Shown here: positions 1 to 18,484 of the stretch, piece after piece | Layout of the letters: each line of letters opens with the position of its first letter | Position numbering within the stretch: the first letter of the stretch is position 1 | Source: a virus | Strand: one strand, 5' to 3' | Length of the DNA: 24,275 nucleotides | Virus record (IMG/VR): IMGVR_UViG_3300027971_000217 | Location: 1-24,275 of that record | Notes under the pieces: generated by a model | The model's database searches: none | Seen by the model: the letters and a program-made list of their open reading frames with translations, nothing else | Told to the model about the DNA's origin: nothing | Program-made: the position numbers and the translations under genes

Positions 1-2
1 AT

Positions 3-365
3 TTACAAAATCCACATCATTCTGTATTCAACAGCAGTTTCATGTGGTGGAATGTGAGTAATTTTTCTCGCATATGGGATCAGTTCTCTCAAGGCGATAT
101 TGCCCAACTGACCAAAAACAATCAAGGCGATCAGGATTACATCACCAAATCCATCAATATCAATCAACGTAGATTTTTTGAAGATCGACTGTTTCAAAGT
201 TTTAGATGGCAATGCCTGGACGGCGGATATAATTTCCAACGGCGCCAGCCACGAGCACCCGGCACTGGTGTGAAGATTGCCCCGGATACTGCGGTGGTGG
301 TGTTCCACGGCATGCCCAAACCGCATCAAATATCCGATCCTGCTATTGCACAATTATGGCGCTGA
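3..365 (+). CDS. glycosyltransferase-like protein, C-terminal part (5' truncated by window edge)
   Basis: The frame is open from the first base of the window, so this is the end of a longer gene and the internal ATG at 42 is probably not its start. The visible 120 residues contain an FNSSFMWW segment, a QGDQDYI segment and, near the end, VVVFHGMPKPHQ. This order (NSS, GDQD, FHGxPKP) resembles the C-terminal half of a group of phage and bacterial proteins related to nucleotide-sugar glycosyltransferases, where the FHG-P-P segment closes the active-site region. The sugar donor and acceptor cannot be read from the sequence. The role may be glycosylation of virion proteins, DNA or host surface, which is inference. 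The family call rests on motif recall, not a search. Confidence 0.55.
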   Translation, partial: LQNPHHSVFNSSFMWWNVSNFSRIWDQFSQGDIAQLTKNNQGDQDYITKSININQRRFFEDRLFQSFRWQCLDGGYNFQRRQPRAPGTGVKIAPDTAVVVFHGMPKPHQISDPAIAQLWR

Positions 366-448
366 TCAGAACTATCTAAACACAGTGATTTTCGCAAACA
401 ATCGCAGATTTTTAGACGAACGCCGTAATAAAATCTCACTGGGTCTGC

Positions 449-456
449 CATAAATA
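449..456 (+). promoter_or_regulatory. T4-type late promoter (CATAAATA)
   Basis: One mismatch to the T4 late consensus TATAAATA. If the last A is at -6 as in T4, transcription starts near 462. That gives a 13-base leader carrying GGAGG at 463-467 before the ATG at 475. Only position and similarity to the other late motifs in the window support it. Confidence 0.6.
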
Positions 457-474
457 CAGCATGGAGGATAAATC

Positions 475-1044
475 ATGGTTCAGAGAATAGTCAAATTGAT
501 AGGTAGTGCATATGCCATCAGTGGCGATCTACATGTGCAAGCAACATACAATGGGGCAGAAATCTTGAATGGTCCGGTCACTACCACTGTGACAGACGTG
601 ATTCCTGATGTGGGACAATTACCTGCTCCGGCTTTGAACGAATTGGTCCTATTTGAAACCACAACAGATGCCACCGGGCAAATACCAGTTATCATCACTG
701 TGACCGGCGGCACTTTGTTTTTTACAAATTTCTGGATGAATTACACTGGATTCATTAAAGAGAGACAAGCAACCGATCCCGACACCCCTATCGACGCCAA
801 CGACCCCAGCACATATATCTGGGTAGTGACAGGGCAGTCCGATTCATACTATTCAGATCCAAATAACAATACTGCGGAAAGTGATGGCGTTTCAAATCTC
901 ACTAAAAATGGTGAACCTTGGGAGTGGCGTGTGAATGTCGGCGATCGAGTAGGTGATTGGACATATCCAATAGCCAGCGGCGAAACCGTGACCTTTGACT
1001 TTTTTGTAGATCCGGCAAAAGTAGCATTGGTGGTTCCTGATTAA
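475..1044 (+). CDS. putative late virion-associated beta-rich protein
   Basis: 189 aa. The ATG is chosen because GGAGG lies 7 bases upstream and a late-promoter motif lies just before that. The sequence is rich in Thr, Val, Asn and Gly and has few charged residues outside the middle, as expected for a beta-sandwich virion or adhesin domain. The segment around residues 70-95 (VTGGTLFFTNFWMNYTGF) suggests a carbohydrate-binding-type beta sandwich, but I cannot confirm the family. No signal peptide or membrane segment is visible. It is monocistronic, bounded by a late promoter and a strong terminator at 1061, which fits a late structural gene just before the early region begins. An accessory head or tail protein is possible; the function is unknown. 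Confidence 0.7.
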   Translation: MVQRIVKLIGSAYAISGDLHVQATYNGAEILNGPVTTTVTDVIPDVGQLPAPALNELVLFETTTDATGQIPVIITVTGGTLFFTNFWMNYTGFIKERQATDPDTPIDANDPSTYIWVVTGQSDSYYSDPNNNTAESDGVSNLTKNGEPWEWRVNVGDRVGDWTYPIASGETVTFDFFVDPAKVALVVPD

Positions 1045-1060
1045 TCACTACTCTGATACC

Positions 1061-1091
1061 AAAAACCCTACATGTTGTAGGGTTTTTTTTT
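1061..1091 (+). terminator. rho-independent terminator
   Basis: A 12-bp perfect stem (1061-1072 pairs with 1076-1087, core CCCTACA/TGTAGGG) with a 3-base TGT loop is followed by a run of T. It ends the late gene at 475-1044 and lies only 5 bases before the -35 box of the first early promoter, insulating late from early transcription. Confidence 0.92.
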
Positions 1092-1095
1092 GAGG

Positions 1096-1124
1096 TTGAC
1101 TTATATTACATTCTGCACTATAAT
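1096..1124 (+). promoter_or_regulatory. early sigma70-type promoter, leaderless start at 1131
   Basis: TTGACT (1096-1101), 17-bp spacer, TATAAT (1119-1124). The -10 box ends so that position +1 is 1131, exactly the A of an ATG that opens a 35-codon frame. Confidence 0.85.
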
Positions 1125-1130
1125 ATGCTC

Positions 1131-1238
1131 ATGTCAACAAAACAAGCACAGTTCAGCAACATTGCAACAAGAGTTGGAATAATCCAACTAAATTCGCAAT
1201 CGAAGTTGGAAAAAGATGCAACTAAACGGGTTGACTAA
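1131..1238 (+). CDS. small leaderless early protein, 35 aa
   Basis: The frame begins with ATG at the predicted transcription start of a near-consensus promoter and stops at TAA 1236-1238. It encodes a 35-residue hydrophilic, slightly basic peptide starting MSTKQAQFSN and ending EKDATKRVD, with no membrane segment and no Cys. There is no Shine-Dalgarno sequence and no room for one if the promoter is used as drawn, so translation would be leaderless. The stop codon overlaps the -35 box of the next promoter (1231-1236). No homologue is known to me. The alternative is that this is an untranslated leader of the AAA ATPase gene containing two imperfect AGTTGGAA...AACTAAA repeats. Confidence rests on promoter geometry repeated elsewhere in the window. 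Confidence 0.5.
   Translation: MSTKQAQFSNIATRVGIIQLNSQSKLEKDATKRVD
1172..1226 (+). repeat. imperfect direct repeat with internal inverted repeat
   Basis: The stretches 1172-1192 and 1204-1226 share AGTTGGAA at the left and AACTAAA at the right. The first copy is a perfect 7-bp inverted repeat (AGTTGGA/TCCAACT, loop ATAA). It may be an operator or RNA hairpin upstream of promoter 2, or incidental to the coding sequence of the small gene. Confidence 0.4.
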
Positions 1239-1259
1239 TAATGGGTATTTTGCTATAAT
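1231..1259 (+). promoter_or_regulatory. early sigma70-type promoter of the AAA ATPase gene
   Basis: TTGACT (1231-1236), 17-bp spacer, TATAAT (1254-1259) with a TGC extended -10. Predicted start is about 1266, giving a 39-base leader with AGGAG at 1292-1296 before the ATG at 1305. Unlike its upstream twin, this promoter makes a conventional leadered mRNA. Confidence 0.88.
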
Positions 1260-1304
1260 AACAGCTTAGTAAGTAAGTTCAACAGCACATTAGGAGCCAA
1301 CCAA

Positions 1305-2327
1305 ATGAGTGCAATTCGTATCGTACGCGGCGAGTATCGCGGCACAACTGTAAAAAACCAAAACTTTACACTAGTGTCAGGATTCCAGACTGGTGCCAAA
1401 GGTGGTTATGTGACCGTGCAAAATGACGGCACATTTCCCAACTGCCCTGCCACAATCCGCATCAAAGTTGATGCTATCTCTGACTACGAGATGATAAATG
1501 GAGACACTGTAGAAATGAACACATCTGCTCCTACTGCTAAGACAGTAGAGACTGAAGACGAAGCAATGACTCGTATCCGCGAGCGTTTTGAAATCCTTAC
1601 AGAAATGAGCAAAGCCTGCATTGGCGGCGACATCCGCGCAATGATCGTGTCGGGCCCGCCTGGCGTGGGCAAGAGCTACGGCGTTGAGCAAGAAATTGAA
1701 AAAGCCACACTGTTTGATCGTCTTGCAGGCAAACGATTGCGAGCTGAAGTTGTGAAAGGTTCGGCTACTCCTATTGGCCTGTATCAAACTCTGTACAAAT
1801 ACTCAGACGAGAATTGTGTGCTGGTGTTTGATGACTGTGACAGCATCCTGCTTGACGACGTGTGTTTGAACTTGCTGAAAGGTGCATTGGACTCGGGCAA
1901 GAAGCGTAAGATTTCTTGGTTGAGCGAGAGCTCGGCTCTGCGCCGCGAAGGCATCCCAGATCAGTTTGACTTCAAAGGCAGTGTGATCTTTATCACCAAC
2001 ATGAAGTTCGACAAGATGAAATCGCAGAAACTGCGTGATCACTTGGACGCTCTGCAAAGTCGTTGCCATTACTTGGACTTGACGCTGGACACTATGCGTG
2101 ACAAGATCTTGCGTATCAAACAGATTGCCAAAGACGGTGTGTTGTTTGAAGGCTACGACTTTGAACCCGAAACTCAAGACAGCATCTTTGAGTTTATGGA
2201 AACCAACCAGACTCGTTTGCGTGAAATGAGCCTGCGTATGGCGCTGAAGATTGCTGATTTGCGTAAGCTGAGTCCCGGTAACTGGAAACGCCTGTCTGAG
2301 ACCACTTGCATGAAGGTAGCAGACTAA
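1305..2327 (+). CDS. AAA-family ATPase, early
   Basis: 340 aa. Walker A is GPPGVGKS at residues 117-124 and Walker B is CVLVFDDCD at 171-179; a sensor-1-like FITN follows near residue 230. The first 70 or so residues form a separate beta-rich N-terminal domain. Single-domain AAA ATPases of this layout occur in many T4-like environmental phages, but the substrate is unknown. The ATG is set by AGGAG 8 bases upstream. Transcription comes from the promoter at 1231 and possibly also from 1096. The next small gene starts one base after this stop codon, suggesting coupled translation. Its position at the head of the early region, before replication and recombination genes, suggests a role in takeover or DNA metabolism; that part is inference. 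Confidence 0.92.
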   Translation: MSAIRIVRGEYRGTTVKNQNFTLVSGFQTGAKGGYVTVQNDGTFPNCPATIRIKVDAISDYEMINGDTVEMNTSAPTAKTVETEDEAMTRIRERFEILTEMSKACIGGDIRAMIVSGPPGVGKSYGVEQEIEKATLFDRLAGKRLRAEVVKGSATPIGLYQTLYKYSDENCVLVFDDCDSILLDDVCLNLLKGALDSGKKRKISWLSESSALRREGIPDQFDFKGSVIFITNMKFDKMKSQKLRDHLDALQSRCHYLDLTLDTMRDKILRIKQIAKDGVLFEGYDFEPETQDSIFEFMETNQTRLREMSLRMALKIADLRKLSPGNWKRLSETTCMKVAD

Positions 2328-2328
2328 A

Positions 2329-2469
2329 ATGGAAGTGTCTATTGTGTGGATGCTGCTGAATGGTTGGTTTGCCAAGCATTGCTTTGAGGATGGCAGCACC
2401 ATGTCAGGATGGGTGTGTTTGTTTATCAGTGCCTATTATCTGGCCCGGGTGCTAGAGGCAGTTTTTTAA
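2329..2469 (+). CDS. small hydrophobic protein, 46 aa
   Basis: The ATG follows the AAA ATPase stop codon by one base, and the frame runs to TAA at 2467-2469. The peptide (MEVSIVWMLLNGWFAKHCFE... ending ARVLEAVF) has a hydrophobic N-terminal stretch, a short polar centre at about residues 15-25, then a second hydrophobic stretch (WVCLFISAYYLA, about 28-39). It looks like a small two-segment membrane protein or membrane-associated peptide. The only ribosome site visible is a weak AAGG 13 bases upstream, so translation is probably coupled to the ATPase gene. No family is recognised. It could regulate or anchor the ATPase, which is inference. A terminator follows at 2529. Confidence 0.6.
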   Translation: MEVSIVWMLLNGWFAKHCFEDGSTMSGWVCLFISAYYLARVLEAVF

Positions 2470-2495
2470 AGTCATGGCGTTACAGTCAATGAAAC

Positions 2496-2523
2496 GTTCG
2501 GGATAGGTTGGCTCCGCCCGAAC
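2496..2523 (+). other. stem-loop GTTCGGG / CCCGAAC upstream of terminator
   Basis: A perfect 7-bp stem (2496-2502 with 2517-2523) has a 14-base loop that could pair further (GG/CC). It is not followed by a T-run. It precedes the true terminator by 5 bases, so the early transcript would end in two stacked hairpins. It could protect the 3' end or be part of a small structured RNA. Confidence 0.4.
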
Positions 2524-2528
2524 TTTAT

Positions 2529-2555
2529 AACAGGCACTTAGGTGCCTGTTTTTTT
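2529..2555 (+). terminator. rho-independent terminator
   Basis: A 9-bp perfect stem (AACAGGCAC / GTGCCTGTT, 2529-2537 with 2542-2550), TTAG loop, then a T-run. Its T-run supplies the first bases of the -35 box (TTGACT at 2554) of the next promoter. Confidence 0.92.
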
Positions 2556-2582
2556 GACTTTTGTTTGCGATAAGTATATACT
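2554..2582 (+). promoter_or_regulatory. early sigma70-type promoter, leaderless or nearly so
   Basis: TTGACT (2554-2559), 17-bp spacer, TATACT (2577-2582). The predicted start (2588-2589) coincides with the ATG at 2588. No Shine-Dalgarno sequence is present. Confidence 0.82.
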
Positions 2583-2587
2583 GAACT

Positions 2588-3454
2588 ATGACCAGTGAAT
2601 ATCTTATCATCACATTAGGCAAAGATCACAGCACAGAATTAAAGTTTCGTATTAGGCCAACGGCATTATCAGAGTTATGGCTTGATCGAATGCAACAAAG
2701 ATATCCGTATCCATTGGATCATGCAGATAGATTTTATGGGTTTGATGATCCAGCAAAAGAAAAATCTCGTGCAACAAGCATGATACAAAACTGTATCAAC
2801 ATCATAAACACCCACGAACACATAATCGAACGTGAATTTGAATACACTCAAGATTGTCTCAACTACCTACATAATATATTTGAAAAATATCATGGGTTAT
2901 TGGATCAGCAAACATCCGACTATTGGTTGAGAGCACCCGAACAGGTACGAGTGGCATTAGCAGAACTAAATCTTGCAGTACATAGATGTGAGGATGCAGC
3001 AGGACTGCCTTTACCAAGGATGGTATGCACATGGTTTGGATTACCTAAGACTCACTGTTTGTCTAAAGAACTCCAACGTGAGTACGGAGAGACTTTGATA
3101 AAGTTTGGCACAGTTTATCTCAACTATTGCGAGATAGGAAAAACAGTTGATGATCTAGCATACGACAATGATATGTACATAAGCGACGAGGCATTTCGGC
3201 CATTTGGCCACTATAGTGCCGATTTCAATGTGGCATTTCATGACCGAGATCCTACTGAAAGATATCCGCAAATACAAAATTATATAGAGCAACATAGTGA
3301 TTTTTTTCTTGCAAAAGGAATCACGAGTGTGTATAATATACAAGCACAACCACTTTATTTTCCCGTGGCGGACCTGGAATATTCTGGAGATCAGATAGAT
3401 CTGATTCAGCAGATAAGAGATCAACAGTTTGTGCGTGAAGTAAAATTACAATGA
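2588..3454 (+). CDS. conserved-type phage protein of unknown function, early
   Basis: 288 aa, acidic and mainly helical in character. The first residues (MTSEYLIITLGKDHSTELKF) look like a beta-strand pair, followed by a long helical region rich in His, Glu and aromatic residues (about 60-150), then a FGLPKT segment near residue 155. No signal peptide, membrane segment or known catalytic motif is evident. The ATG at 2588 is retained because no other start precedes the ordered N-terminus; it lies at the predicted transcription start, so the mRNA is probably leaderless. The 3' end overlaps the UvsW gene by ATGA, indicating coupling. By eye it is more A+T-rich than its neighbours. Function unknown. 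Confidence 0.85.
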   Translation: MTSEYLIITLGKDHSTELKFRIRPTALSELWLDRMQQRYPYPLDHADRFYGFDDPAKEKSRATSMIQNCINIINTHEHIIEREFEYTQDCLNYLHNIFEKYHGLLDQQTSDYWLRAPEQVRVALAELNLAVHRCEDAAGLPLPRMVCTWFGLPKTHCLSKELQREYGETLIKFGTVYLNYCEIGKTVDDLAYDNDMYISDEAFRPFGHYSADFNVAFHDRDPTERYPQIQNYIEQHSDFFLAKGITSVYNIQAQPLYFPVADLEYSGDQIDLIQQIRDQQFVREVKLQ

Positions 3455-4920
3455 AACAATGTACAATACAAATCAATGACGAAGTGAATATCAAAATTGA
3501 AGGTCTGGATCTTGATGCTCGCAAAGCTCTAGTCAAAGCATTCAAATACGATATTCCATACGCACGATATCTGCCGGCAGTGAGACTGGGACGATGGGAT
3601 GGCAAGGTATCTTATTTCCAACTGGGCGGCAGCACATACGTCAATCTACTGCCGGACATTATTCCGCTGTTGGAACGATTTGACTACGATATTGAATTGG
3701 ATGATCGTAGAGAGTACTCAACCACGTTTGAGTTTGCCCAAGTGACAGAACAAAGCTACAGCGATCGACTGTGGCCCAAGAACCATCCTGCAGAAGGACA
3801 GCCCATCCTGTTGCGTGATTATCAAGTGGAGATCATCAACAACTTTTTAACCAATCCACAATGCATACAAGAAGTGGCCACAGGTGCTGGCAAGACCATC
3901 ATGACAGCAGCATTGAGTGATGCTGTGAGTCGATATGGTCGTAGTATTGTTATCGTGCCTAACAAAAGTCTTGTGACACAGACAGAAAAAGATTACATCA
4001 ACATGGGATTGGATGTGGGTGTGTATTTTGGCGACAGAAAAGAATACGGCCGTATGCACACAATCTGCACATGGCAAAGCCTAAACAATCTCATGAAGAA
4101 CACCAAGAACGGCATAGGTGATTGTACCATCCAGGAGTTTATTGAAGATGTGGTCTGTGTGATAGTGGATGAGGTGCATATGGCCAAAGCAGATGCACTC
4201 AAAACTCTGCTGACAGGCGTGATGTCTAGAGTGCCAATTCGATGGGGATTGACCGGCACCGTGCCAAAAGAACTGTTTGAGAGCCAAGCACTATTGGTCA
4301 GTCTAGGTCCAGTGATCAGCAGACTGTCAGCAAGCACATTGCAGGATGCTGGTGTGCTAGCCAACTGCCATGTGAATATAGTGCAACTGGTGGATCATGT
4401 GGAGTACGCAGACTATCAAGCAGAGCTAAAATATCTATTGGAAGAATCTGGCAGACTAGACACCATGGCATCGCTTATACAGCGTGTGAATGAAACAGGC
4501 AATACACTAGTGTTAGTTGATAGAACAGAATGCGGTCGCCAGCTGGTAGAACGACTGGGAGAGCATGCAGTATTTGTATCCGGGGCTACCAAAGCCAAAG
4601 TACGTCAAGAAGAATATGATGAGATTGCTGTGAGTGATGGCAAGATCATCGTGGCCACATATGGTGTGGCTGCTGTGGGTATCAACATACCACGTATCTT
4701 TAACCTTGTGCTAATCGAGCCGGGCAAGAGTTTCGTGCGTGTGATCCAGAGTATTGGGCGTGGTATCCGCAAAGCCGAAGACAAGGATCATGTGCAGATA
4801 TGGGATATCACATCAACATGCAAGTTCGCTAGACGACATCTAAACAAACGAAAGGTGTTCTACAAAGAGGCCAACTATCCATTCACTGCCGAAAAACTGG
4901 AATGGATGAAGATATCTTGA
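3451..4920 (+). CDS. uvsW: UvsW-type superfamily 2 DNA/RNA helicase
   Basis: 489 aa, close to the 503 aa of T4 UvsW. It has the UvsW-type N-terminal domain (RYLPAVRLGRWDGKVSYF, residues 39-56), a Q-like motif LRDYQVEIINNFL (121-133), motif I ATGAGKT (143-149), motif II DEVH (240-243), motif III GLTGT (266-270) and motif VI QSIGRGIRKA (433-442). All catalytic motifs are intact. UvsW of T4 unwinds branched DNA and R-loops and helps switch from origin-dependent to recombination-dependent replication. The start overlaps the upstream stop (ATGA), so translation is coupled to the unknown 288-aa protein. The last bases of the gene carry the -35 box of the next promoter. Confidence 0.95.
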   Translation: MKQCTIQINDEVNIKIEGLDLDARKALVKAFKYDIPYARYLPAVRLGRWDGKVSYFQLGGSTYVNLLPDIIPLLERFDYDIELDDRREYSTTFEFAQVTEQSYSDRLWPKNHPAEGQPILLRDYQVEIINNFLTNPQCIQEVATGAGKTIMTAALSDAVSRYGRSIVIVPNKSLVTQTEKDYINMGLDVGVYFGDRKEYGRMHTICTWQSLNNLMKNTKNGIGDCTIQEFIEDVVCVIVDEVHMAKADALKTLLTGVMSRVPIRWGLTGTVPKELFESQALLVSLGPVISRLSASTLQDAGVLANCHVNIVQLVDHVEYADYQAELKYLLEESGRLDTMASLIQRVNETGNTLVLVDRTECGRQLVERLGEHAVFVSGATKAKVRQEEYDEIAVSDGKIIVATYGVAAVGINIPRIFNLVLIEPGKSFVRVIQSIGRGIRKAEDKDHVQIWDITSTCKFARRHLNKRKVFYKEANYPFTAEKLEWMKIS

Positions 4921-4945
4921 CATTGGCAAGATATCCAACTATACT
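4917..4945 (+). promoter_or_regulatory. early sigma70-type promoter, leaderless start at 4952
   Basis: Consensus TTGACA (4917-4922), exact 17-bp spacer, TATACT (4940-4945). With -10 at -12 to -7, +1 is 4952, the A of the ATG. The -35 box overlaps the uvsW stop codon. Confidence 0.87.
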
Positions 4946-4951
4946 ACACAC

Positions 4952-5452
4952 ATGCGAATACTAACCTTAGACAATAGCTTTTATGACCTAGATCACTTGC
5001 CCGACGAAGTCGATGATATGAGATTTGCCATCTTGGATAACTCGGATCCCAAAGATCCAGACTATCATTTTATACCACTCATATTCCTGGAAAGTTTTAA
5101 TGCACCTGCATTGGTATTAAGGATAGGCGATGCCACTATCAAGATGCCCATGGATTGGCAGATCCTAATCGGTGAGCCCGACGTGGGTGACCTTGAAGTG
5201 CTGCCACTCACCAGCATAAATGATCGTGGCTTCAAGGTATTCCAATTCAATCCGCTGACCAGTTTCCGTCCCAGCTTTCCAGACATTGAAATCTTGGATG
5301 TGTATCACGAAGTGAATTGGTTTGCACCCAAACTCAAAAATGGCCAGCTGCTGGCAGTGCCCTTGAACGACGACGCAGAACCCGATTGTGTGTATTTTGT
5401 CAAAGACATCAGCCGCAACTGCGAAATAGTGGATTACAACAAGGCCTGGTAA
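4952..5452 (+). CDS. conserved-type phage protein of unknown function, leaderless early gene
   Basis: 166 aa, acidic and globular, with alternating short strands (MRILTLDNSFYDLDHL at the start) and many aromatic and proline residues (PLTSINDRGF near 88-97, NPLTSFRPSFPDIEI near 102-116). No membrane segment, Cys cluster or enzyme motif is seen. The ATG lies exactly at the predicted start of a consensus promoter and has no Shine-Dalgarno sequence, so the message is probably leaderless. It opens a tightly coupled operon: its TAA shares a base with the next ATG. I recognise the sequence type as recurrent in environmental T4-like phages but know no function. Confidence 0.87.
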   Translation: MRILTLDNSFYDLDHLPDEVDDMRFAILDNSDPKDPDYHFIPLIFLESFNAPALVLRIGDATIKMPMDWQILIGEPDVGDLEVLPLTSINDRGFKVFQFNPLTSFRPSFPDIEILDVYHEVNWFAPKLKNGQLLAVPLNDDAEPDCVYFVKDISRNCEIVDYNKAW

Positions 5453-5751
5453 TGGGACAGCTCAAGCCCGGAGCCACATTGATATATGAACGGGTGGATG
5501 ACACGGTGTATCAGCGCGAAGCAGGAGCCGATCCCAACACAAGAGTGGAAATAGGATACGATTACGACATACACGAAGAACGTCGCGACTCAGACATACG
5601 GGCAGGAATGAAAAATCGACGCGATGGGATCATGGAAGACAAACTATGGGGCAACATACGCAGAGCTGCACGGACAAATCCCACTTTACAAGATATTCTA
5701 GATCATGCTATAATGGTGTATCATTTGACTCAGACTGAAAAATCACCATGA
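5452..5751 (+). CDS. small phage protein with NPxLQDxLDxxxxxYxLT C-terminal motif (copy 1)
   Basis: 99 aa. The start is the ATG in TAATG (5451-5454), with AAGG 7 bases upstream. An upstream in-frame Met at 5317 is rejected because it lies inside the previous gene. The first 25 residues (MGQLKPGATLIYERVDDTVY) form a distinct strand-rich part. The C-terminal 30 residues, IRRAARTNPTLQDILDHAIMVYHLT, are an amphipathic helix pair matching the C-terminus of the next gene. Function is unknown; the shared helix may be a docking or dimerisation module. Confidence 0.8.
   Translation: MGQLKPGATLIYERVDDTVYQREAGADPNTRVEIGYDYDIHEERRDSDIRAGMKNRRDGIMEDKLWGNIRRAARTNPTLQDILDHAIMVYHLTQTEKSP
5685..5714 (+). promoter_or_regulatory. 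possible internal sigma70-type promoter
   Basis: TTTACA (5685-5690), 18-bp spacer, TATAAT (5709-5714) with a TGC extended -10. It lies inside the coding sequence for the conserved LQDILDHAIM motif, so it may be coincidental. The predicted start near 5721 would give a 27-base leader for the gene at 5748. Confidence 0.35.
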
Positions 5752-6050
5752 AAAAGATCATCAATCCTATAGCTGCTGACCGGTATCTAGACCAATGGAA
5801 AGACCTGTGGCTTACCAAGGAGTATGAACCGGATGAATGGGAACGCACCAAATGGGAAAAATTGTGCGAAATGGAAGAATACAAAGAAATCCAAGAAAAA
5901 GTATATGAGCCTTACTATGAACTTGCCGGCGATGAATACCGACTATTCGAACAATGGCGGGACATAGTTGTGGCCGCTGAAATCAATCCTGCTTTACAAG
6001 ACCTACTGGATCAAGTTAAAATGATGTATAAGCTGACCAAGATCAAATAA
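5748..6050 (+). CDS. small phage protein, paralogous C-terminus (copy 2)
   Basis: 100 aa, beginning in an ATGA overlap with the upstream gene. It is very rich in Trp, Tyr and Glu in the first 70 residues (WKDLWLTKEYEPDEWERTKW), strongly acidic and probably helical. The C-terminus INPALQDLLDQVKMMYKLTK aligns position by position with NPTLQDILDHAIMVYHLTQT of the neighbour, so the two share a terminal domain with divergent N-termini. They probably arose by tandem duplication or domain shuffling. No enzymatic motif. Function unknown. Confidence 0.8.
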   Translation: MKKIINPIAADRYLDQWKDLWLTKEYEPDEWERTKWEKLCEMEEYKEIQEKVYEPYYELAGDEYRLFEQWRDIVVAAEINPALQDLLDQVKMMYKLTKIK

Positions 6051-6493
6051 TGGATAAACTAGATATCATAAATGAGATGCGTCAGCTGGACGCAAAGAAC
6101 CGTGACTTCTATGATGAACTCACCACCGAGGAACGAAAGAAATTCAGTATCTATCTCATGATACGTTGGGGCTCAGCAGTGGGCGGCAGTCAAGACATAC
6201 AAGAATATTATGTACAGAGCACCAATCACTATCTCAACAAAAACTTCTTTGACATAGCCAAGCATCCCAAACTGCAATGGCTGTGTGCAACTGCTGCAAG
6301 CCCGGGCATGGGAGTGATGAAACATAACTGGATTGCACCCAAGAAGAAAGAAGCAGGACTCAGTGCCAAACGCAAAGCCTTGATGACTATTTTCCCCACA
6401 TACAAAGATGATGAGATTGATGTGATGGCGCACCTGGTTACACAAAAAGAAATTGATGCTTATAACAAATCCAGTGGTAACGAAAAAAAATGA
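6050..6493 (+). CDS. unknown early protein, weakly clamp-loader-small-subunit (gp62)-like
   Basis: 147 aa, starting in a TAATG overlap (TAA 6048-6050, ATG 6050-6052). A helical N-terminus (MDKLDIINEMRQLDAKNRDF) is followed by RWGSAVGGSQDIQEYYVQST, then NKNFFDIAKHPKLQWL, then a Lys-rich stretch (IAPKKKEAGLSAKRK) and a terminal helix. The order (aligned N..L segment, hydrophobic helix, basic K-rich segment, acidic terminal helix) is reminiscent of the T4 gp62 clamp-loader small subunit of cyanophages, which is also short and poorly conserved. This is a weak resemblance judged by eye. The context of replication genes is compatible; unknown function is the safer label. Confidence 0.72.
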   Translation: MDKLDIINEMRQLDAKNRDFYDELTTEERKKFSIYLMIRWGSAVGGSQDIQEYYVQSTNHYLNKNFFDIAKHPKLQWLCATAASPGMGVMKHNWIAPKKKEAGLSAKRKALMTIFPTYKDDEIDVMAHLVTQKEIDAYNKSSGNEKK

Positions 6494-7191
6494 ATCTAGT
6501 TGTTAATGGTTGTAGTTATATGCATTTATATGCAATCGGACACGGGCATATTGATCTGGCAGAACAACTAAGATTAGACAATCCTGTTAGTCTTGCAATT
6601 AGTGGTAGTGCAAATAGTCGTATATTGCGTACCACTCTCAAACACAGTTACACCGCACCTCCTACCTTTTATATACTTGGCATGACATTTCTCTCAAGGT
6701 TAGAAATTCCTATCTGCACGCCAATAGATGATTTTGAAGGTAGGTGGGTGAATCCGCAAAATCAAGAATTCAGCACCCGTTGGCAATTGGACTGGACACA
6801 GAAAGATCGTGATCAATTTGTTGAAATTAAACTCAAAACTGAAATATATAGTATCTTAGATCGTATAGAAGATCTGATGTATCGTATATTGAGCACTATC
6901 TCAGATTTAAAAAGCCGAGGGCATCGGGTGTTGATATTTCAACAAGCAGATAATTTATATATTGATCTATTAGATGATCCTAGACTGAGATTTTTTGATC
7001 AACCTGAAATTATTGACAAATTCAATTGGCGTGCAGTATCATGGCAAGCCAATCAAGGAGTACCGCCTCAGCAGTATCAAGACGGATCACCGCATGTGCC
7101 ACCGGAAATGACTCATCGAAGAATTAGACATCATCAGACATTGAATGAATATTTGACTAACTATATTCAAGAGAATAAACTATTAACATGA
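6490..7191 (+). CDS. SGNH-hydrolase-like protein
   Basis: 233 aa, starting in an ATGA overlap. Motifs fit the SGNH/GDSL fold in order: block I NGCSYM with the candidate nucleophile Ser9, GSANSRI (39-45) with Asn42 as the oxyanion-hole type residue, and near the C-terminus DGSPHVPPEMTH (198-209), supplying candidate Asp198 and His202 or His209. Such phage proteins, often starting with a short strand then GCSx, are predicted esterases or acyl hydrolases acting on sugars or glycans; the substrate is not known. No signal peptide, so cytoplasmic or virion-bound. By eye the gene is more A+T-rich than its neighbours, suggesting independent acquisition. Its 3' end contains an early promoter for the next gene. 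Confidence 0.7.
   Translation: MNLVVNGCSYMHLYAIGHGHIDLAEQLRLDNPVSLAISGSANSRILRTTLKHSYTAPPTFYILGMTFLSRLEIPICTPIDDFEGRWVNPQNQEFSTRWQLDWTQKDRDQFVEIKLKTEIYSILDRIEDLMYRILSTISDLKSRGHRVLIFQQADNLYIDLLDDPRLRFFDQPEIIDKFNWRAVSWQANQGVPPQQYQDGSPHVPPEMTHRRIRHHQTLNEYLTNYIQENKLLT
7153..7181 (+). promoter_or_regulatory. early sigma70-type promoter inside upstream gene, leaderless start at 7188
   Basis: TTGACT (7153-7158), 17-bp spacer, TAAACT (7176-7181). +1 falls on 7188, the A of the next ATG. The promoter lies in the last codons of the SGNH gene. Confidence 0.75.
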
Positions 7192-7862
7192 GTTTTGTTT
7201 GTGGTCATTGTGATAAAACTTTCTTGAGAGAAAGCAGTATCGAAGTTCACATGTGCGAGCCAAAACGTCGCAGACTGCAACGCGGCGATAGAGGAGTGCA
7301 GTTGGGGTTACAAGCCTATGTGAGGTTTTATGAGACCATGCAGGGCTCGGCCAAGAACAAAACATTTGATGATTTTGAAACATCATCTTATTATCGTGCT
7401 TTTGTGAAGTTTGGACATTACTGTGTGAATACTCGAGTAATCAATCCAGAAAGATTTATGGCGTGGCTACTCAAGCAACAGAAGAAGATTGATAAATGGT
7501 GCAGCGATCAGATCTACACAGAGTATCTCGCAAACTATCTCACACTGGAAGCAGTGGATGATGCACTAGCAAGAGCAATGGAATACGGATTGGACTGGGC
7601 AGAGAAGACCGGTAACCCAGCACATGACTGTTTGAGATACGGCAATGCCAATGTGATATGCCATGCTATCACCGCCGGGCGTGTGAGTCCTTGGGTGATA
7701 TACAGTTCCGAATCGGGGCAAAAATTCTTGAGCGAACTCAGTTCAGACCAAATAGCTATGATATGGATTTATATCGACTCGGATGTGTGGCAGAAAAAAT
7801 TCCAGACATATCCAGCCGATCACGAATACGCACAGGAAATGTTGAAACAAGCAGGATGGTAA
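7188..7862 (+). CDS. phage protein with N-terminal C2HC zinc finger
   Basis: 224 aa. The first 23 residues form a finger with Cys5, Cys8, His21 and Cys23 (FVCGHCDKTF...EVHMC), followed by a basic KRRRLQRG stretch. The rest is helical and aromatic-rich (AYVRFYETMQ, SSYYRAFVKFGHYCV, RVSPWVIYSS), ending with YPADHEYAQEMLKQAGW. The finger-plus-basic start suggests nucleic-acid binding, perhaps in transcription or replication; the long C-terminal domain is unrecognised. I recall related proteins in cyanophages and other T4-like phages without assigned roles. It overlaps the SGNH gene by ATGA but also has its own promoter with +1 at the ATG, so it can be made from a read-through mRNA or a leaderless one. 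Confidence 0.85.
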   Translation: MSFVCGHCDKTFLRESSIEVHMCEPKRRRLQRGDRGVQLGLQAYVRFYETMQGSAKNKTFDDFETSSYYRAFVKFGHYCVNTRVINPERFMAWLLKQQKKIDKWCSDQIYTEYLANYLTLEAVDDALARAMEYGLDWAEKTGNPAHDCLRYGNANVICHAITAGRVSPWVIYSSESGQKFLSELSSDQIAMIWIYIDSDVWQKKFQTYPADHEYAQEMLKQAGW

Positions 7863-7863
7863 C

Positions 7864-8442
7864 ATGAGCGCAGATATTGATATTGACTTTGCTGACAGAG
7901 AACATGCGTTGAAACTGATACGCCATACACCCGCACGGCAACTGCATCAAGGCACAGCGAGAAAACACAATTCGGGTGTGTATGTCACTGATATTCCACA
8001 GGATCCTGTGATGGCATGTGCAGCCATAGATTACGAAACTGCTGAGTCACGTGGTTATTTCAAAATAGATTTTCTGAACATGGGGGTGTATGGTTTGATT
8101 CGAGATCCTGCACACTATGCTGAGATGCTGGCAGCTGACCCACCGTGGGAGAGATTGTGGTTGGACACTGAGTGGGCACAGCAATTGGTACATGTGGGCA
8201 ACTACACAGGATTACTACAGAGTATGAGACCTGATTCAATCCCCAGGATGGCTGCATTTATCTCTATCATACGGCCGGGCAAAGCACACTTACAAAATCA
8301 GTCTTGGACGGATGTGTTTGGCTCGGTATGGGATGGTGATCTCAGTCGGGGATATGTGTTTAAGAAAGCCCATGCACTAGGTTATGCAGCCCTAGTGGCA
8401 TTGCACATGAATCTGCTTAATCAAGCCGTCGCACCAGCATGA
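7864..8442 (+). CDS. miniature DNA polymerase III alpha (C-family palm)-like protein
   Basis: 192 aa against about 1160 for E. coli DnaE, yet the landmarks of the C-family polymerase core appear in order: DIDIDFADRE (4-13, cf. PDFDVDF with catalytic D401/D403), ARKHNSGVYVTDIP (32-45, cf. GKHAGGVVIAP), AESRGYFKIDFLNMGVY (60-76, cf. VKFDFLGL with D555; here D69), SMRPDSIPRMAAFISIIRPGKAHL (120-143, cf. the PD-FED-ALVALFRPGP block) and YVFKKAHALGYAALVALHMN (164-183, cf. FNKSHSAAYALVSYQ). PHP, most of the fingers, the beta-clamp-binding and C-terminal domains are absent. Catalysis cannot be assumed; a regulatory or degenerate role is possible. AGGA lies 7 bases before the ATG. Its 3' end overlaps the convergent minus-strand gene by 26 bases. 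Confidence 0.8.
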   Translation: MSADIDIDFADREHALKLIRHTPARQLHQGTARKHNSGVYVTDIPQDPVMACAAIDYETAESRGYFKIDFLNMGVYGLIRDPAHYAEMLAADPPWERLWLDTEWAQQLVHVGNYTGLLQSMRPDSIPRMAAFISIIRPGKAHLQNQSWTDVFGSVWDGDLSRGYVFKKAHALGYAALVALHMNLLNQAVAPA

Positions 8443-8794
8443 TGCTTTTGCGTTTGCTTTTCTTTCGAGCTATATCTAATAGACTGCAAGCAGGGCCATG
8501 CATTATTTCTAGATCTTTATTGACGAATGTACGCAGAGTGTAACGGAATTGTTCCCAATCTTTACGCAAGAAGATATTGATGGGAATAGATCTGTTGCTT
8601 TCCCACCACCAAACTGATGCTAATTCTAGATACATCATCTTGTCAGACTGATCTGCCACTGCGCCAAAGTCATAGATCGTGGTAACCACATCATCTTTGT
8701 TTTGGATCACACCCACATATTCAGAATTGGCATACATGCATAGACTGATAAAAGGATATTTCTCCGTTAGTTTTTCAAATACATTGTTACCCAT
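8417..8794 (-). CDS. unknown late protein, leaderless candidate
   Basis: 125 aa from the ATG at 8794 (MGNNVFEKLTEKYPFISLCM); a longer frame from 8869 is rejected because it would cross the late promoter. Features are a VWWWESNRSIPINIFL stretch in the middle and a very basic C-terminus (ARKKSKRKSIMLVRRL), suggesting a nucleic-acid or RNA polymerase contact, which is inference. No Cys cluster, membrane segment or known motif. The late promoter on the minus strand (CATAAATA, 8807 to 8800) puts +1 at 8794, the A of the ATG, and there is no Shine-Dalgarno sequence. Tail-to-tail overlap of 26 bases with the plus-strand polymerase-like gene. Confidence 0.8.
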   Translation of the reverse strand: MGNNVFEKLTEKYPFISLCMYANSEYVGVIQNKDDVVTTIYDFGAVADQSDKMMYLELASVWWWESNRSIPINIFLRKDWEQFRYTLRTFVNKDLEIMHGPACSLLDIARKKSKRKSIMLVRRLD

Positions 8795-8799
8795 TGGGG

Positions 8800-8807
8800 T
8801 ATTTATG
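8800..8807 (-). promoter_or_regulatory. T4-type late promoter (CATAAATA), minus strand
   Basis: One mismatch to TATAAATA. By T4 spacing +1 is 8794, coinciding with the start codon of the minus-strand gene. It is one half of a divergent late promoter pair with 8822-8829. Confidence 0.6.
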
Positions 8808-8821
8808 GTCAGTATTTTTCG

Positions 8822-8829
8822 GATAAATA
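8822..8829 (+). promoter_or_regulatory. T4-type late promoter (GATAAATA)
   Basis: One mismatch to TATAAATA. Predicted +1 at 8835, leaving a 2-base leader before the ATG at 8837. An AGGA at 8832-8835 would be too close to the ATG to act normally. Confidence 0.62.
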
Positions 8830-8836
8830 ATAGGAT

Positions 8837-9907
8837 ATGTATTCTACCACCGCTTATCTTTACCAACAAATCACACGAGTGCTATTAGTAGACACCAGTG
8901 GAGGATACTTTACTGCGAGGTATGACCCTGTGTATGCAAAGACCCTAACCATTAACAAAGGTGTTGATAACGTTCTGTTGTTTGAGTTCATCAATCAAGA
9001 TCAGAAACCCGTCAATATCACCGGTAGCACGTTCGTGTTCCGTCTTATCGACCAAGCTGGCGGACAGTTGCTGTTGGCCAAAGACATGGAGACCCTAAGT
9101 GCAAGCACAGGGCGTGTGAAGGTGGTTCTCAACAGCTCAGACACCATCAACATCCAGTCTCAACCAGCCAGTTACAGCATACAACGTGCTGCCGGTGACT
9201 ATGTACAGGCAGCCTATACCGGTGCAGATAGTGCAGCCCGCGCTGATTGCAACATCGTGGATAGCATATTCCCTAGCTTTATTCCCAGCGCAGAATGCAC
9301 TGTGCCCGATCTATATGGTAAGAATCAATATGTTGGTGCCGCACCCACAGCATTTCCAGATTGGGCATTGACACCACAACCGGTCAACAGCATACAACAA
9401 ACTGAATTTTACAGCAGTTATATCAATACCAACCAGACAGCTTTTACCACCATCAAGTTTGATCTTGTGCATTACACAGGCACAGTCAAGATACAGGCTG
9501 CCGAAAACTACGAAGCAGTTTGGACAGATGTATCTGAATCACGGCAATACCTAGACGAAACAGTAAGTGACTACTTTAACATCGTAGGATTCCATCCGCT
9601 GTTGAGATTGGCCATGAACAATAGCATCGGATACGGTGCCAGTGGTACAGCCACCGTGGTAGATGGTGTGGTCACAGGAATAAGTGTGACCTATCCAGGA
9701 CAATATTATGTGGCCCCACCGTATGTGCAGATTTTAGGCAATGGTGCTGGTGCAGAAGCAGTGGCTTCGGCCAGTGGTAATGGTGGTGTTGGATCGGTCA
9801 CGGTAACCAATGGTGGCGCAGGATATGTTCCATTACAGTTCCAGGGCTCATTGGCAGCCACAGTGTTATTCACAAATGGCTTGATCCGCAACGTACAATA
9901 CCGATAA
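8837..9907 (+). CDS. putative baseplate/tail-fibre structural protein
   Basis: 356 aa. The N-terminal 130 residues (AYLYQQITRVLLVDTSG, then TINKGVDNVLLFEFINQDQKPVNI) resemble the beta-sandwich start of phage baseplate and fibre proteins in which the text 'linear change plus default property' ordering (KGVDN, NxDQKPVN, FxFRLID) recurs. Residues 264-331 are Gly-rich repeats of the GxGYxxxPxVxIxGxG type seen in fibre shafts and adhesins. Few charged residues, no signal peptide. Expressed from a late promoter directly upstream. The exact baseplate or fibre position is unknown. The start is kept at 8837 because the ordered N-terminus begins within ten residues; the leader is only about 2 bases. 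Confidence 0.75.
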   Translation: MYSTTAYLYQQITRVLLVDTSGGYFTARYDPVYAKTLTINKGVDNVLLFEFINQDQKPVNITGSTFVFRLIDQAGGQLLLAKDMETLSASTGRVKVVLNSSDTINIQSQPASYSIQRAAGDYVQAAYTGADSAARADCNIVDSIFPSFIPSAECTVPDLYGKNQYVGAAPTAFPDWALTPQPVNSIQQTEFYSSYINTNQTAFTTIKFDLVHYTGTVKIQAAENYEAVWTDVSESRQYLDETVSDYFNIVGFHPLLRLAMNNSIGYGASGTATVVDGVVTGISVTYPGQYYVAPPYVQILGNGAGAEAVASASGNGGVGSVTVTNGGAGYVPLQFQGSLAATVLFTNGLIRNVQYR

Positions 9908-9910
9908 CCG

Positions 9911-9939
9911 TTGCGATTGCTCAAACAATCTGTTAAACT
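9911..9939 (+). promoter_or_regulatory. sigma70-type promoter of primase operon, leaderless start at 9946
   Basis: TTGCGA (9911-9916), 17-bp spacer, TAAACT (9934-9939) with a TGT extended -10. +1 falls on 9946, the A of the primase ATG. The -35 box is weaker than in the other early promoters. Confidence 0.65.
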
Positions 9940-9945
9940 GTACGG

Positions 9946-10929
9946 ATGCTAGACATCCTGCAATATCTACCGGCAAAACGAAAATCCACGCCATCAGGTT
10001 GGGTAAGTTTCAATGCGGTGTGCTGCCAGCACAGCAGCGCCACAGTAGATCGTCGTGGTCGGGGAGGTCTCAAGCCCACAGAATCGGGGTGGAGTTATCA
10101 CTGCTTCAACTGCAATTACACCGCCAGCTTTATCCTTGGCCGCTCAGTGAGCTTTAAAGCCCGTAGGCTCTTGGGCTGGATGGGTGTGCCCGACGCAGAG
10201 ATTGATGCGTTGAATCTAGAAAGCCTAAGGCATCGTAGCATACATGGTATCCTGGATGATCGCCAGCGAGTATTCAATGCATTATCAGACATCCAGTTTG
10301 AAGAACAAGAACTGCCGGCATTGAGTGAGTTATTGGCGGGCGAAGATCTGCGTAGGGAGTATCTAAGGCTTAGGTGTGTGCCTGATGACTATCCTGTGAT
10401 GATACAGGATCATCCGGAAAAATCATGGAAACATAGACCCAGCGTGATCATACCATTCATTCACGACGATCGCATAGTAGGATACACACAGAGATTCTTA
10501 GATGACCGTACGCCTAAATACATCAGCAATAGCCAACCAGGCTATGTGTTTGGTACAGACTTACAACACAACGACTGGACTCATGCAATCGTGGTAGAAG
10601 GTATATTTGATGCGTTATGCATCGGTGGTCTGGCAGTGATGCACAGTACCATAAGTGATGAGCAAGCACGACTGATCCGTAGTCTAGGCAAGGAAATAAC
10701 AGTGGTGCCAGATCAAGACGCCGCAGGCATGGAACTGGTAGATCGTGCTGTGGAACTGGGTTGGGCAGTGAGCATGCCACCATGGCCCGCGGATATTAAG
10801 GATGTGAATGACAGCGTGATGCGTTATGGACGCCTGGCGACTCTGCTAATTATATTTGAAAACAGAAACAGCAGTAAGATCAAAATAGAATTAAGGAAGA
10901 AGCAACTTGTTAAAAGATTACAGCATTGA
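9946..10929 (+). CDS. DNA primase, T4 gp61 type
   Basis: 327 aa, close to T4 gp61 (342). An N-terminal zinc-binding element has C26/C27-x-H29 and C53-x2-C56 (YHCFNCNY). A TOPRIM domain follows: VVEGIFDAL with Glu218, then VVPDQDAAG with Asp256 and Asp258, the metal ligands for primer synthesis. It makes RNA primers for lagging-strand synthesis and acts with the hexameric helicase encoded next. The 23-base overlap with the helicase gene argues for coordinated stoichiometry. Its own promoter has +1 at the start codon and there is no Shine-Dalgarno sequence. Intact, with no missing key residue seen. Confidence 0.93.
   Translation: MLDILQYLPAKRKSTPSGWVSFNAVCCQHSSATVDRRGRGGLKPTESGWSYHCFNCNYTASFILGRSVSFKARRLLGWMGVPDAEIDALNLESLRHRSIHGILDDRQRVFNALSDIQFEEQELPALSELLAGEDLRREYLRLRCVPDDYPVMIQDHPEKSWKHRPSVIIPFIHDDRIVGYTQRFLDDRTPKYISNSQPGYVFGTDLQHNDWTHAIVVEGIFDALCIGGLAVMHSTISDEQARLIRSLGKEITVVPDQDAAGMELVDRAVELGWAVSMPPWPADIKDVNDSVMRYGRLATLLIIFENRNSSKIKIELRKKQLVKRLQH
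10893..10899 (+). promoter_or_regulatory. ribosome-binding site fixing the TTG start of the helicase gene
   Basis: AAGGAAG lies 7 bases before TTG at 10907, inside the primase coding sequence. It decides the non-ATG start of the replicative helicase. Confidence 0.7.
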
Positions 10930-12355
10930 TGTACAAAAATTATTCCTGGAAATGATATTAGAGGATGCTGCCAGCTATGTGCGTGTGCAGAACATTTACA
11001 ATCCAGAGAACTTTGATAAGAGCCTACGAGCAGCAGCAGAGTTTATCAAAGAGCACAGCGAAAAACACAAAACTCTGCCGGATATCACGCAGATAGCAGC
11101 CACCACTGGTCTGAAACTACAGGCGGTGCCAGACTTGAATGAAGGACACTATGAATGGTTCATGGAGGAGTTTGAAGCATTCACACGCAGACAAGAATTA
11201 GAACGTGCTATATTGAAATCAGCAGACTTGCTAGAAAAGGGCGAGTACGGCCCAGTGGAAAAACTGATCAAAGATGCAGTACAGATCAGTCTGACCAAAG
11301 ACATGGGCACAGACTACTTTGCTGATCCAGCAAGTCGTATCAACAACTATTTTAACTCAGGCGGGCAGGTGAGCACTGGCTGGCCACAGATGGATCGATT
11401 GCTGTATGGTGGATTCAGTCGTGGAGAACTAAACATATTTGCAGGTGGGTCGGGATCGGGTAAGAGTTTGGTCATGATGAATATCGCACTGAACTGGTTG
11501 CAACAAGGGCTAAGTGGAGTGTATGTGACATTGGAACTGAGTGAGGATTTGACCAGTTTGCGTACAGATGCCATGCTCACAAACATGAGCACCAAAGACA
11601 TACGCAGAGATATCAATACCACTGAGCTCAAGGTCAGGATGATGGGCAAGAAGTCCGGCAACTATCAAGTGAAAGGGTTGCCGGCACAGAGCAACATCAA
11701 TGACATTAGATCATACTTGAAAGAATATCAGATACAAACCAGCAAACGTGTGGATTTTGTGATGATTGATTACCTGGACTTGCTGATGCCAATCAGTGTG
11801 AAAGTCAATCCCAATGATCAGTTTATCAAAGACAAGTATGTGAGTGAAGAACTGCGCAACTTGGCCAAAGAACTACAGATATTGATGGTCACTGCCTCGC
11901 AGTTGAATCGTAGTGCAGTGGAAGAAGTAGAATTTGATCACAGTCATATCGCAGGTGGCATTTCAAAGATCAACACAGCAGACAATGTGTTTGGTATCTT
12001 TACCAGCAGATCAATGAAAGAACGTGGCAAGTATCAGATCCAATGTATGAAATCGCGTAGTTCCACGGGTGTGGGTCAAAAGATTGATTTGGAATACAAC
12101 ATTGAGACCATGCGTATCACCGATGAAGGTGGCGAAGATGGGGATACCGGGTCACGTGCTTCCAAGCCCAGTTTTATGGAAACTATCAAAGCCCGTGCAA
12201 GTGTCACACCTGCCGAGCCTGTGACATCAAACAACGGATGGGAACGTGCGCAGCCCAAGCCGGGTATAGATCCATTGGATCCCACACCCAAGGTCAGCGC
12301 CGATGTACAAAGCAGCAAGCTCAAGGAGATGTTGGGAAAGATCAAAACGGCATGA
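10907..12355 (+). CDS. replicative DNA helicase, T4 gp41/DnaB type
   Basis: 482 aa with a RecA-like DnaB helicase core: Walker A GGSGSGKS (180-187), an ELSED motif at 210-214 following the first strand-helix, Walker B VMIDYLDLL (285-293), and SQLNR (331-335, motif H3). The N-terminal 130 residues are helical, as in DnaB-type primase-interacting domains. The C-terminal tail after about 400 is low-complexity and Pro-rich, perhaps a docking tail for other replisome proteins. The start is TTG, supported by AAGGAAG; no ATG precedes the conserved N-terminus. It unwinds the fork 5' to 3' in complex with the gp61-type primase. The stop overlaps the radical SAM ATG. Confidence 0.94.
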   Translation: MLKDYSIDVQKLFLEMILEDAASYVRVQNIYNPENFDKSLRAAAEFIKEHSEKHKTLPDITQIAATTGLKLQAVPDLNEGHYEWFMEEFEAFTRRQELERAILKSADLLEKGEYGPVEKLIKDAVQISLTKDMGTDYFADPASRINNYFNSGGQVSTGWPQMDRLLYGGFSRGELNIFAGGSGSGKSLVMMNIALNWLQQGLSGVYVTLELSEDLTSLRTDAMLTNMSTKDIRRDINTTELKVRMMGKKSGNYQVKGLPAQSNINDIRSYLKEYQIQTSKRVDFVMIDYLDLLMPISVKVNPNDQFIKDKYVSEELRNLAKELQILMVTASQLNRSAVEEVEFDHSHIAGGISKINTADNVFGIFTSRSMKERGKYQIQCMKSRSSTGVGQKIDLEYNIETMRITDEGGEDGDTGSRASKPSFMETIKARASVTPAEPVTSNNGWERAQPKPGIDPLDPTPKVSADVQSSKLKEMLGKIKTA

Positions 12356-14860: not shown

Positions 14861-14868
14861 GCTAAATA
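14861..14868 (+). promoter_or_regulatory. late promoter (GCTAAATA)
   Basis: Same GCTAAATA as at 19610 and 22451. Predicted +1 about 14874, 16 bases before the ATG at 14890. Confidence 0.65.
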
Positions 14869-17956: not shown

Positions 17957-17964
17957 TATAAATA
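17957..17964 (+). promoter_or_regulatory. T4 late promoter, perfect TATAAATA
   Basis: Exact T4 late consensus. Predicted +1 at 17970, 36-base leader with AAAGGA (17992-17997) 8 bases before the ATG at 18006. The longest leader and best promoter in the window. Confidence 0.9.
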
Positions 17965-18476: not shown

Positions 18477-18484
18477 CTTAAATA
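18477..18484 (+). promoter_or_regulatory. late promoter (CTTAAATA)
   Basis: Two mismatches to TATAAATA. Predicted +1 at 18490, only 3 bases before the ATG at 18493, with no Shine-Dalgarno sequence. It immediately follows the terminator. Confidence 0.55.

Follow-up and report, generated by a model that had tools for sequence, protein, structure and literature searches.

Leaderless phage mRNA is already known from lambda cI and from phiYS40, a phage of Thermus. Leaderless initiation in lambda is named in the available portions of PMC3160421 and PMC9031893, and the accessible text of a review describes the middle and late mRNAs of phiYS40 as leaderless, with changed levels of IF2 and IF3 proposed (PMC3594737). 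In the giant phage AR9 the leaders measure 26–491 bases, and the paper describing them notes in passing that leaderless transcripts are frequent among phages (PMC5312081). Kasugamycin is said to leave leaderless mRNA active (PMC5230787). Here we analyze IMG/VR virus record IMGVR_UViG_3300027971_000217, a complete record of 24,275 bases (44.9% GC) that is a fragment of its phage's genome and is referred to below as the window. Several of its genes begin at an ATG placed a few bases behind a sigma70-type promoter. We consider it likely that a subset of genes in an uncultured T4-like jumbo phage group is expressed as leaderless mRNAs from such a compact promoter-start unit.

Distances are given from the last base of the -10 box to the A of the ATG, and promoters are scored out of 12 hexamer bases. 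The original prediction had named five promoters in the window, all on the plus strand, and the distances it claimed are exact for all five. The distance is 7 for the promoters at 1096–1124 (TTGACT-17-TATAAT, 11/12; ATG at 1131), 4917–4945 (TTGACA-17-TATACT, 11/12; ATG at 4952), 7153–7181 (TTGACT-17-TAAACT, 9/12; ATG at 7188) and 9911–9939 (TTGCGA-17-TAAACT, 8/12, with a TG ahead of the -10; ATG at 9946), and 6 for the promoter at 2554–2582 (TTGACT-17-TATACT, 10/12; ATG at 2588). The accompanying claim that these genes lack a Shine-Dalgarno (SD) sequence also held, with no good SD in the 50 bases inspected upstream of each. Promoter-like sites as such are not in excess, since 29 were found in bases 1–12200 and 26.9 are expected from shuffles; what is unusual is the placement of the sites, not their number. 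From the 135 distinct plus-strand -10 ends scoring at least 8/12 and the 29 listed starts (three of which, 5453, 18494 and 21714, are not on a start codon), arithmetic gives about 0.16 expected ATGs at distance 7, and 4 were seen. Behind matches to a strict pattern, TTGAC-N18-TAnnnT, the window has three ATGs at distance 7 and one at distance 6, whereas distances 10–60 average 0.06. The comparative evidence is far stronger than this chance estimate.

Relatives were gathered in four scans (the best 80 of 330, the best 80 of at least 594, the best 80 of 112 and all 65 of 65), which with the window's own locus gave 299 loci; the sample is one of close relatives. The 60 bases before each orthologous start were compared after collapsing at ≥93% identity over those 60 bases, leaving out matches that start past residue 4, lie at a contig edge or have no start codon. 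Before collapsing, 74 of 166 matches were lost for 1305, 39 of 64 for 2588, 210 of 236 for 6050, 44 of 53 for 6490 and 98 of 215 for 7188. A promoter of at least 9/12 at distance 6–8 precedes the 4952 gene in 58 of 88 non-redundant sequences, 53 of them best at 7, and the 9946 gene in 32 of 51. The corresponding figures are 5/6 for 2588, 13/39 for 7188 and 23/90 for the UvsW-like DNA helicase gene (3451–4920), which has no leaderless promoter in the window itself. Two SD-led controls gave 0/23 (1305) and 2/54 (10907). When the requirement is relaxed to TAnnnT and a -35 scoring 4/6 or better, 51/88, 37/51 and 14/39 sequences of 4952, 9946 and 7188 have the boxes at distance 7, and 3, 1 and 0 have them anywhere at distances 11–20. 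In position profiles the -35 and -10 columns are conserved and the mid-spacer is near random, the spacing staying constant while the spacer letters change. Pooled over all loci, promoters of at least 10/12 are followed by an ATG at distance 7 in 128 cases, 115 of them with the 17-base spacer; the average for distances 15–60 is 8.5.

The longest SD match is shorter than 4 bases in 78 of 88 sequences for 4952 and in 47 of 51 for 9946. In contrast, it reaches at least 5 bases in 34 of 54 sequences for 10907, and 1305 carries TAGGAG. Two marks of leaderless mRNA of the lambda cI type, a start codon at or a few bases from the predicted +1 and the absence of an SD, are found here. The strongest cases for predicted leaderless genes are 4952–5452, a phrog_11279 gene that is the best supported of all, and 9946–10929, a DNA primase gene by profile match (Toprim; phrog_47). 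The hexamers before 9946 are weak alone, and it is the strong conservation of their geometry in relatives that makes the case, including an extended -10 with T at -15 in 86% and G at -14 in 88% of the 51 sequences.

A census of promoters scoring at least 11/12 with a 17-base spacer was made in eight large relatives (G001, G002, G004–G008 and G012; long contigs were selected) and the window. Fifty of the 209 promoters were classed as leaderless (an ATG at distance 6–8 opening at least 30 codons), 115 as SD-led and 44 as neither; the SD rule is loose, and 115 is an upper figure. The idea that early genes are systematically leaderless is not supported by this count. At a distance of exactly 7, an ATG opening at least 40 codons follows 37 of the 209 promoters, against a mean of 3.2 per distance at 11–60; within that range the leaders of SD-led genes produce a separate peak (30 at 31 bases). 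In 30 Markov resamples of G001, G002 and G004 there was 1 match, and in the real sequences there were 26. The strict pattern has 75 matches in 12 environmental records, including G009 with none, against 7 when reversed, and the records G001–G008 (0.10–0.35 Mb) contain 4–16 each. Behind 60 strong promoters of the phages PA5oct, GAP32 and Atu_ph07 (first 400 kb), no open-frame ATG was found at distance 7; the single ATG that PA5oct has there is followed by a frame shorter than 40 codons. A scan of the whole of IMG/VR with TTGAC-N16-TGCTATAAT gave an ATG at distance 7 in at least 120 stretches, a lower bound only, against 40 at distance 12. The ATG opens at least 40 codons in 49 of 83 distinct sequences at distance 7 and in 7 of 31 at distance 12. 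In G001 and G004, some 30% of all ATGs do so. The remaining distance-7 matches include many recurring frames of about 14 codons that are not gene-like. Among the 120 distance-7 loci listed, 70 have no match to the open reading frames (ORFs) of G001, G002, G004 or the window.

Codon periodicity in the 4952 and 9946 families begins at the ATG, the third codon position being far more variable downstream of it and not upstream (87 of the 88 rows were used for 4952). An in-frame stop lies within 36 bases upstream in 52/87 and 37/51 sequences, respectively, and for 9946 no in-frame start with an SD-like stretch was found in codons 2–26 (n = 51). At distance 7, 52 of the 209 census promoters are followed by ATA and 46 by ATG. 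SD-led copies in G001 read TATAAT-ACTTGT-ATAGTAATTAAAAAGGAG and the copy before 115782 reads TATAAT-ACTTGT-ATG, the sequences differing past that triplet. Because AT sits there with or without a leader, the predicted +1 would lie at this place in the SD-led siblings too. The RNA 5' end on the A of the ATG is a predicted position.

In the mechanism that we propose, host sigma70-type promoters would start transcription at the A of the start codon, within about one base. The unit would consist of the -35, 17 bases, the -10, 6 bases and the ATG, without need for a ribosome-binding site. It could be housed in the gap of about 30 bases that separates neighbouring genes, next to a terminator or within the end of the gene upstream. 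Host ribosomes would presumably load on the 5' AUG with formylmethionyl-tRNA, as for lambda cI. Selection would keep the unit in some genes, and siblings of the same promoter family would carry an SD leader with ATA, not ATG, at the predicted +1. The sequences themselves supply the geometry, its conservation, the rarity of strong SD matches, coding from the ATG and the absence of the trait at strong promoters of three named relatives. The 5' end, the early timing (suggested by the sigma70-type promoter sequence only), 70S loading and compaction as the main reason for the unit are presumptive.

Several observations weigh against this interpretation. For 4952, 30 of the 88 sequences have no promoter of 9/12 at distance 6–8; among them, 8 score 8/12 at distance 7, 8 have boxes at distance 9–12, and 14, at 67–71% identity, have no such promoter near the ATG. 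The 7188 promoter is missing in 25 of 39 sequences, and the ORF at 1131 may be a spurious 5'-terminal AUG. An upstream in-frame alternative start with no stop between occurs in 23/87 sequences for 4952 and 6/51 for 9946, and in 17/87 for 4952 codon 23 is an in-frame start with an SD-like stretch ahead of it. A leader of 1–3 bases is also compatible with the data, and for 9946 the base directly before the ATG is G in 71% of the 51 sequences. In PA5oct a single open-frame ATG lies at distance 8. The counts include the window's own or near-identical copies and are uncorrected for phylogeny; many of the matches in G002 are also present, almost identical, in G003.

Lack of the promoter or presence of an SD in relatives had been named in the original prediction as a result that would speak against it. 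In close relatives of 4952 and 9946 neither is mostly the case, but the 25 sequences for 7188 and the 14 divergent ones for 4952 do show it, and so do the distant phages Munch and GAP32, where a leader containing an SD-like stretch precedes both the primase and the 4952-like gene. A start codon at the predicted +1 without a good SD is thus conserved for 4952, 9946 and, in six sequences only, 2588, whereas the arrangement is mostly missing for 7188 and the gene at 1131 is doubtful. The primases of Munch (L303, 12432) and GAP32 (L304, 12447) have a -10-like box followed by the leader. The PA5oct primase (L302, 9640) is annotated from a GTG directly after TTGACA-17-TATAAT, with a second GTG at distance 7, and its true start may be leaderless.

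That the pattern stems from chance matches in AT-rich upstream sequence has a close to negligible probability. The low scores of the promoters at 9911 (8/12) and 7153 (9/12) and the shuffle-level total of promoter-like sites would suit it; the conserved spacing and the census controls oppose it. Relatives and controls contradict chance geometry for 4952 and 9946, and 1131 as a gene may still be a product of chance. It is very improbable that the layout is a habit of the host, which would itself use leaderless genes behind such promoters. A survey of 953 bacterial genomes records, in its available part, TA-led leaderless genes in 9 of 71 beta-proteobacterial genomes, with a mean of 6.8% (PMC3160421). 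However, the strict pattern was near control level, with 12 matches against 8 reversed, in nine betaproteobacterial genomes (1.7–7.2 Mb), which were taken from those behind the 80 IscU-like loci described below and may not include the phage's host. Host habit was rejected within that scope. Another explanation accepts the promoters as real but has the RNA start elsewhere, or translation proceed mainly by coupling on read-through polycistronic RNA, the fixed distance being a result of crowding. The ATG of 7188 does overlap the upstream stop codon (ATGA), with the promoter embedded in that gene, and only 31 bases separate the helicase stop from the ATG of 4952. Crowding, however, would not lead one to expect the ATGs of unrelated gene families to peak at exactly 7 behind promoters with a 17-base spacer, nor AT to stand there in SD-led siblings. 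We regard this explanation as distinctly unlikely.

The original prediction had also suggested a takeover strategy that resists shutdown of normal initiation. In the version considered here, leaderless early mRNAs are kept for translation by 70S ribosomes at times when initiation through 30S subunits is hampered or outcompeted, and phage-encoded factors assist, as proposed for phiYS40 in Thermus. We judge this unlikely, with a small chance of being right, and its takeover role is unsupported by what was found. The sigma70-type promoters imply early use, and possible helpers are encoded: bS21 in 9 of 19 records searched (G001–G004, G006, G014, Phosso, Atu_ph07 and PA5oct; among these 19 it was not found in Munch or GAP32), and in each of G001, G002 and G004 one or more tRNA-Met genes in which A faces C or A at 1:72 and the loop reads CTCATAA. 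We take these tRNAs to be initiator-like from their general hallmarks; their anticodon stems are without the full GGG:CCC. It is plausible that bS21 and such a tRNA help leaderless translation. According to the accessible text of a review, more initiator tRNA strongly favours leaderless mRNA (PMC9031893). On the other side, SD-led starts outnumber leaderless ones by 115 to 50 behind like promoters (loose rules), and an initiator-like tRNA is encoded by PA5oct, GAP32 and Atu_ph07, none of which shows the ATG trait at distance 7. As bS21 and initiator-like tRNA also occur in named relatives that lack the trait, they were rejected as the sole, special enabling factors. A phage IF3 was rejected as a factor as well, no such gene being found in eight relatives, most of them fragments; this negative bears on phage genes and not on the levels of host factors. 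A related possibility is a two-track system, in which SD-led and leaderless mRNAs are marked by ATA or ATG at a shared +1 and their balance is shifted during infection by a phage initiator tRNA and bS21; this seems quite improbable. The tRNA genes number 24 in G001, 49 in G002 and 34 in G004, and 0 or 1 in each of the other five large contigs. Dense tRNA arrays are seen in relatives at L395–L396, L410, L416–L417 and L450, with tmRNA calls at L410 and L450 and calls of tRNAs with a cta anticodon.

A late-type gene also bears on the takeover idea. The structural-type gene at 8837–9907 (plus strand; baseplate and other virion profile matches) is preceded by a T4-late-like GATAAATA motif at 8822–8829, with 7 bases between the motif and the ATG. 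In T4-like phages, late transcription starts about 6 bases after the motif, and 8837 is possibly leaderless from a late promoter. TAAATA precedes the gene in 44 of 45 sequences; the gap from motif to ATG is 4–7 bases in 24 occurrences, 15–17 in 20 and 34 in one. Among 16 sequences inspected, the three with a longer gap carry GGAG or GAGG. The late-type promoter of 8837 thus seems to alternate between short and long gaps like the sigma70-type ones, which favours promoter-start compaction as a general habit over a special early takeover. The plus strand of the window has 10 copies of TAAATA, 8 of them within 40 bases before a listed start (a raw count without shuffle control). Copies at 451–456, 8824–8829, 14863–14868, 17959–17964, 18479–18484, 18905–18910, 19612–19617, 20984–20989 and 22453–22458 lie ahead of mostly structural genes, and several of these motifs, which resemble T4 late promoters, precede an SD-like leader.

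The window's promoters and genes described next are on the plus strand. The promoter at 1096–1124 (P1) starts four bases past the T-run of a hairpin at 1066–1082, which was read by eye and is missing from the scan list. At 1066–1102 and 2529–2560 the T-run of a hairpin almost touches or enters the next -35, packing terminator, promoter and start codon together. The 35-codon ORF behind P1 (1131–1238), whose ATG coincides with the predicted +1, is weakly conserved and runs into the next promoter, and its status as a gene is uncertain. Upstream of 1305, 9 of 20 sequences (20 of the 23 rows were used) have a promoter and an ATG at distance 7 that opens an ORF of 28–60 codons with limited similarity. 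The ORF at 1131 may be a small gene or a functionless 5'-terminal AUG. The second promoter, P2 (1231–1259; TTGACT-17-TATAAT with an extended TG), lies at distance 46 from the ATG of the AAA ATPase gene (1305–2327; phrog_1250), whose leader with the TAGGAG SD makes it the SD-led contrast. Proteins like this ATPase but with a different N-terminus are predicted to be leaderless at L458 4197–5021 (G006 84197) and L431 18212–19036 (G007 78212); the likeness was judged by eye from the printed start, and the ends were reckoned from 274 codons. The ATPase family may use both modes.

The -35 of the promoter at 2554–2582 emerges from the T-run of a terminator-like site at 2529–2550, and the distance of 6 to the gene at 2588–3454 is kept in five of the six sequences. 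The -35 at 4917 overlaps the helicase stop codon. The phrog_11058 gene at 7188–7862 has a Cys/His-rich N-terminus; its promoter occupies the final codons of the preceding gene, 6490, and the 14 sequences with a promoter at distance 7 are those whose upstream frame ends as 6490 does. These 14 were picked by TTGAC or TTAAC at the -35 place and are mutually related. In each of them a T closes the codon from which the first T of the -10 comes, whether that codon encodes N, R, H, S or A. Because this T is kept in 14/14 despite the varying residue, the 7188 promoter appears to be under selection, with the reservation that the sequences are related.

The window further encodes a DNA-polymerase-like protein (7864), a DnaB-type helicase (10907) and structural genes. 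The 192-residue gene at 7864–8442 matches a DNA polymerase family (phrog_11778) and is possibly a split or partial polymerase gene; a Phosso gene in a similar position is annotated as DnaE-like. A long ORF on the minus strand (13537–14817) has no PHROGs match, and AATAAATA precedes its start. An IscU-like gene (NifU_N; 21018–21404) adjoins an IscA-like gene (Fe-S_biosyn; 21388–21714), both phage-borne. The IscU-like protein is 80–87% identical to bacterial proteins, and, judged by record title, about 75 of the 80 loci kept are from Betaproteobacteria; the rest are from Vibrio, Photobacterium, an uncultured bacterium and a metagenome-assembled genome titled Thermoflexus. The host is likely, on this evidence, to be a betaproteobacterium. 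A search of genome contigs with the 4952 protein found no relative.

If leaderless expression is correct, start-site calls that rely on the SD would mislead in such phages. One promoter family with both SD-led and leaderless copies would then offer natural test pairs for the benefit of a leader, and the role of jumbo-phage initiator tRNA and bS21 could be tested against two message classes of the phage's own.

Among described phages, the window is closest in gene order to Sinorhizobium phage Phosso, Agrobacterium phage Atu_ph07, Pseudomonas phage PA5oct, Salmonella phage Munch and Cronobacter phage GAP32. All share the order helicase, 4952-like gene, primase, with a DnaB-type gene next where annotated, and this replication gene order places the window with the T4-like jumbo phages related to Phosso, Atu_ph07, PA5oct and GAP32. 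Protein identity to Phosso, Atu_ph07 and PA5oct is 29–53% among the matches listed. The five named phages differ in that the leaderless trait is near control level in them (strict pattern, 12 matches against 6 reversed). Among the matches listed in searches of the open-access literature, we found no report of a conserved leaderless gene set behind consensus sigma70-type promoters in proteobacterial jumbo phages. In Deinococcus-Thermus, -10 boxes adjacent to ORFs likewise stand by the start codon and give leaderless mRNA (available part of PMC12340547), but those are cellular genes of another phylum, whereas here a full -35/17/-10 promoter is found in phages. The 5'-terminal upstream AUGs (5'-uAUGs) of SD-led genes in E. 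coli, as presented in the accessible text of PMC4965119, are a possible description of the 1131 ORF before 1305; unlike in that case, 1305 has its own downstream promoter (1231), and two separate starts are predicted. Lambda cI is one repressor gene of a temperate phage, whereas several unrelated families (the 4952 family, primase, helicase and others) are involved here. The likeness to phiYS40 is that of a phage with a whole class of leaderless mRNAs. In phiYS40, however, most middle and late transcripts are leaderless, in a phylum averaging 39% leaderless genes according to the portion of PMC3160421 available. A programme in which most genes of a temporal class are leaderless is not what the census gives, with 50 of 209 promoters leaderless against 115 SD-led under loose rules and a class assigned from promoter type. 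In contrast to phiYS40, the phage group of the window uses sigma70-type promoters close to consensus, probably infects Betaproteobacteria and has SD-led siblings beside its predicted leaderless genes.

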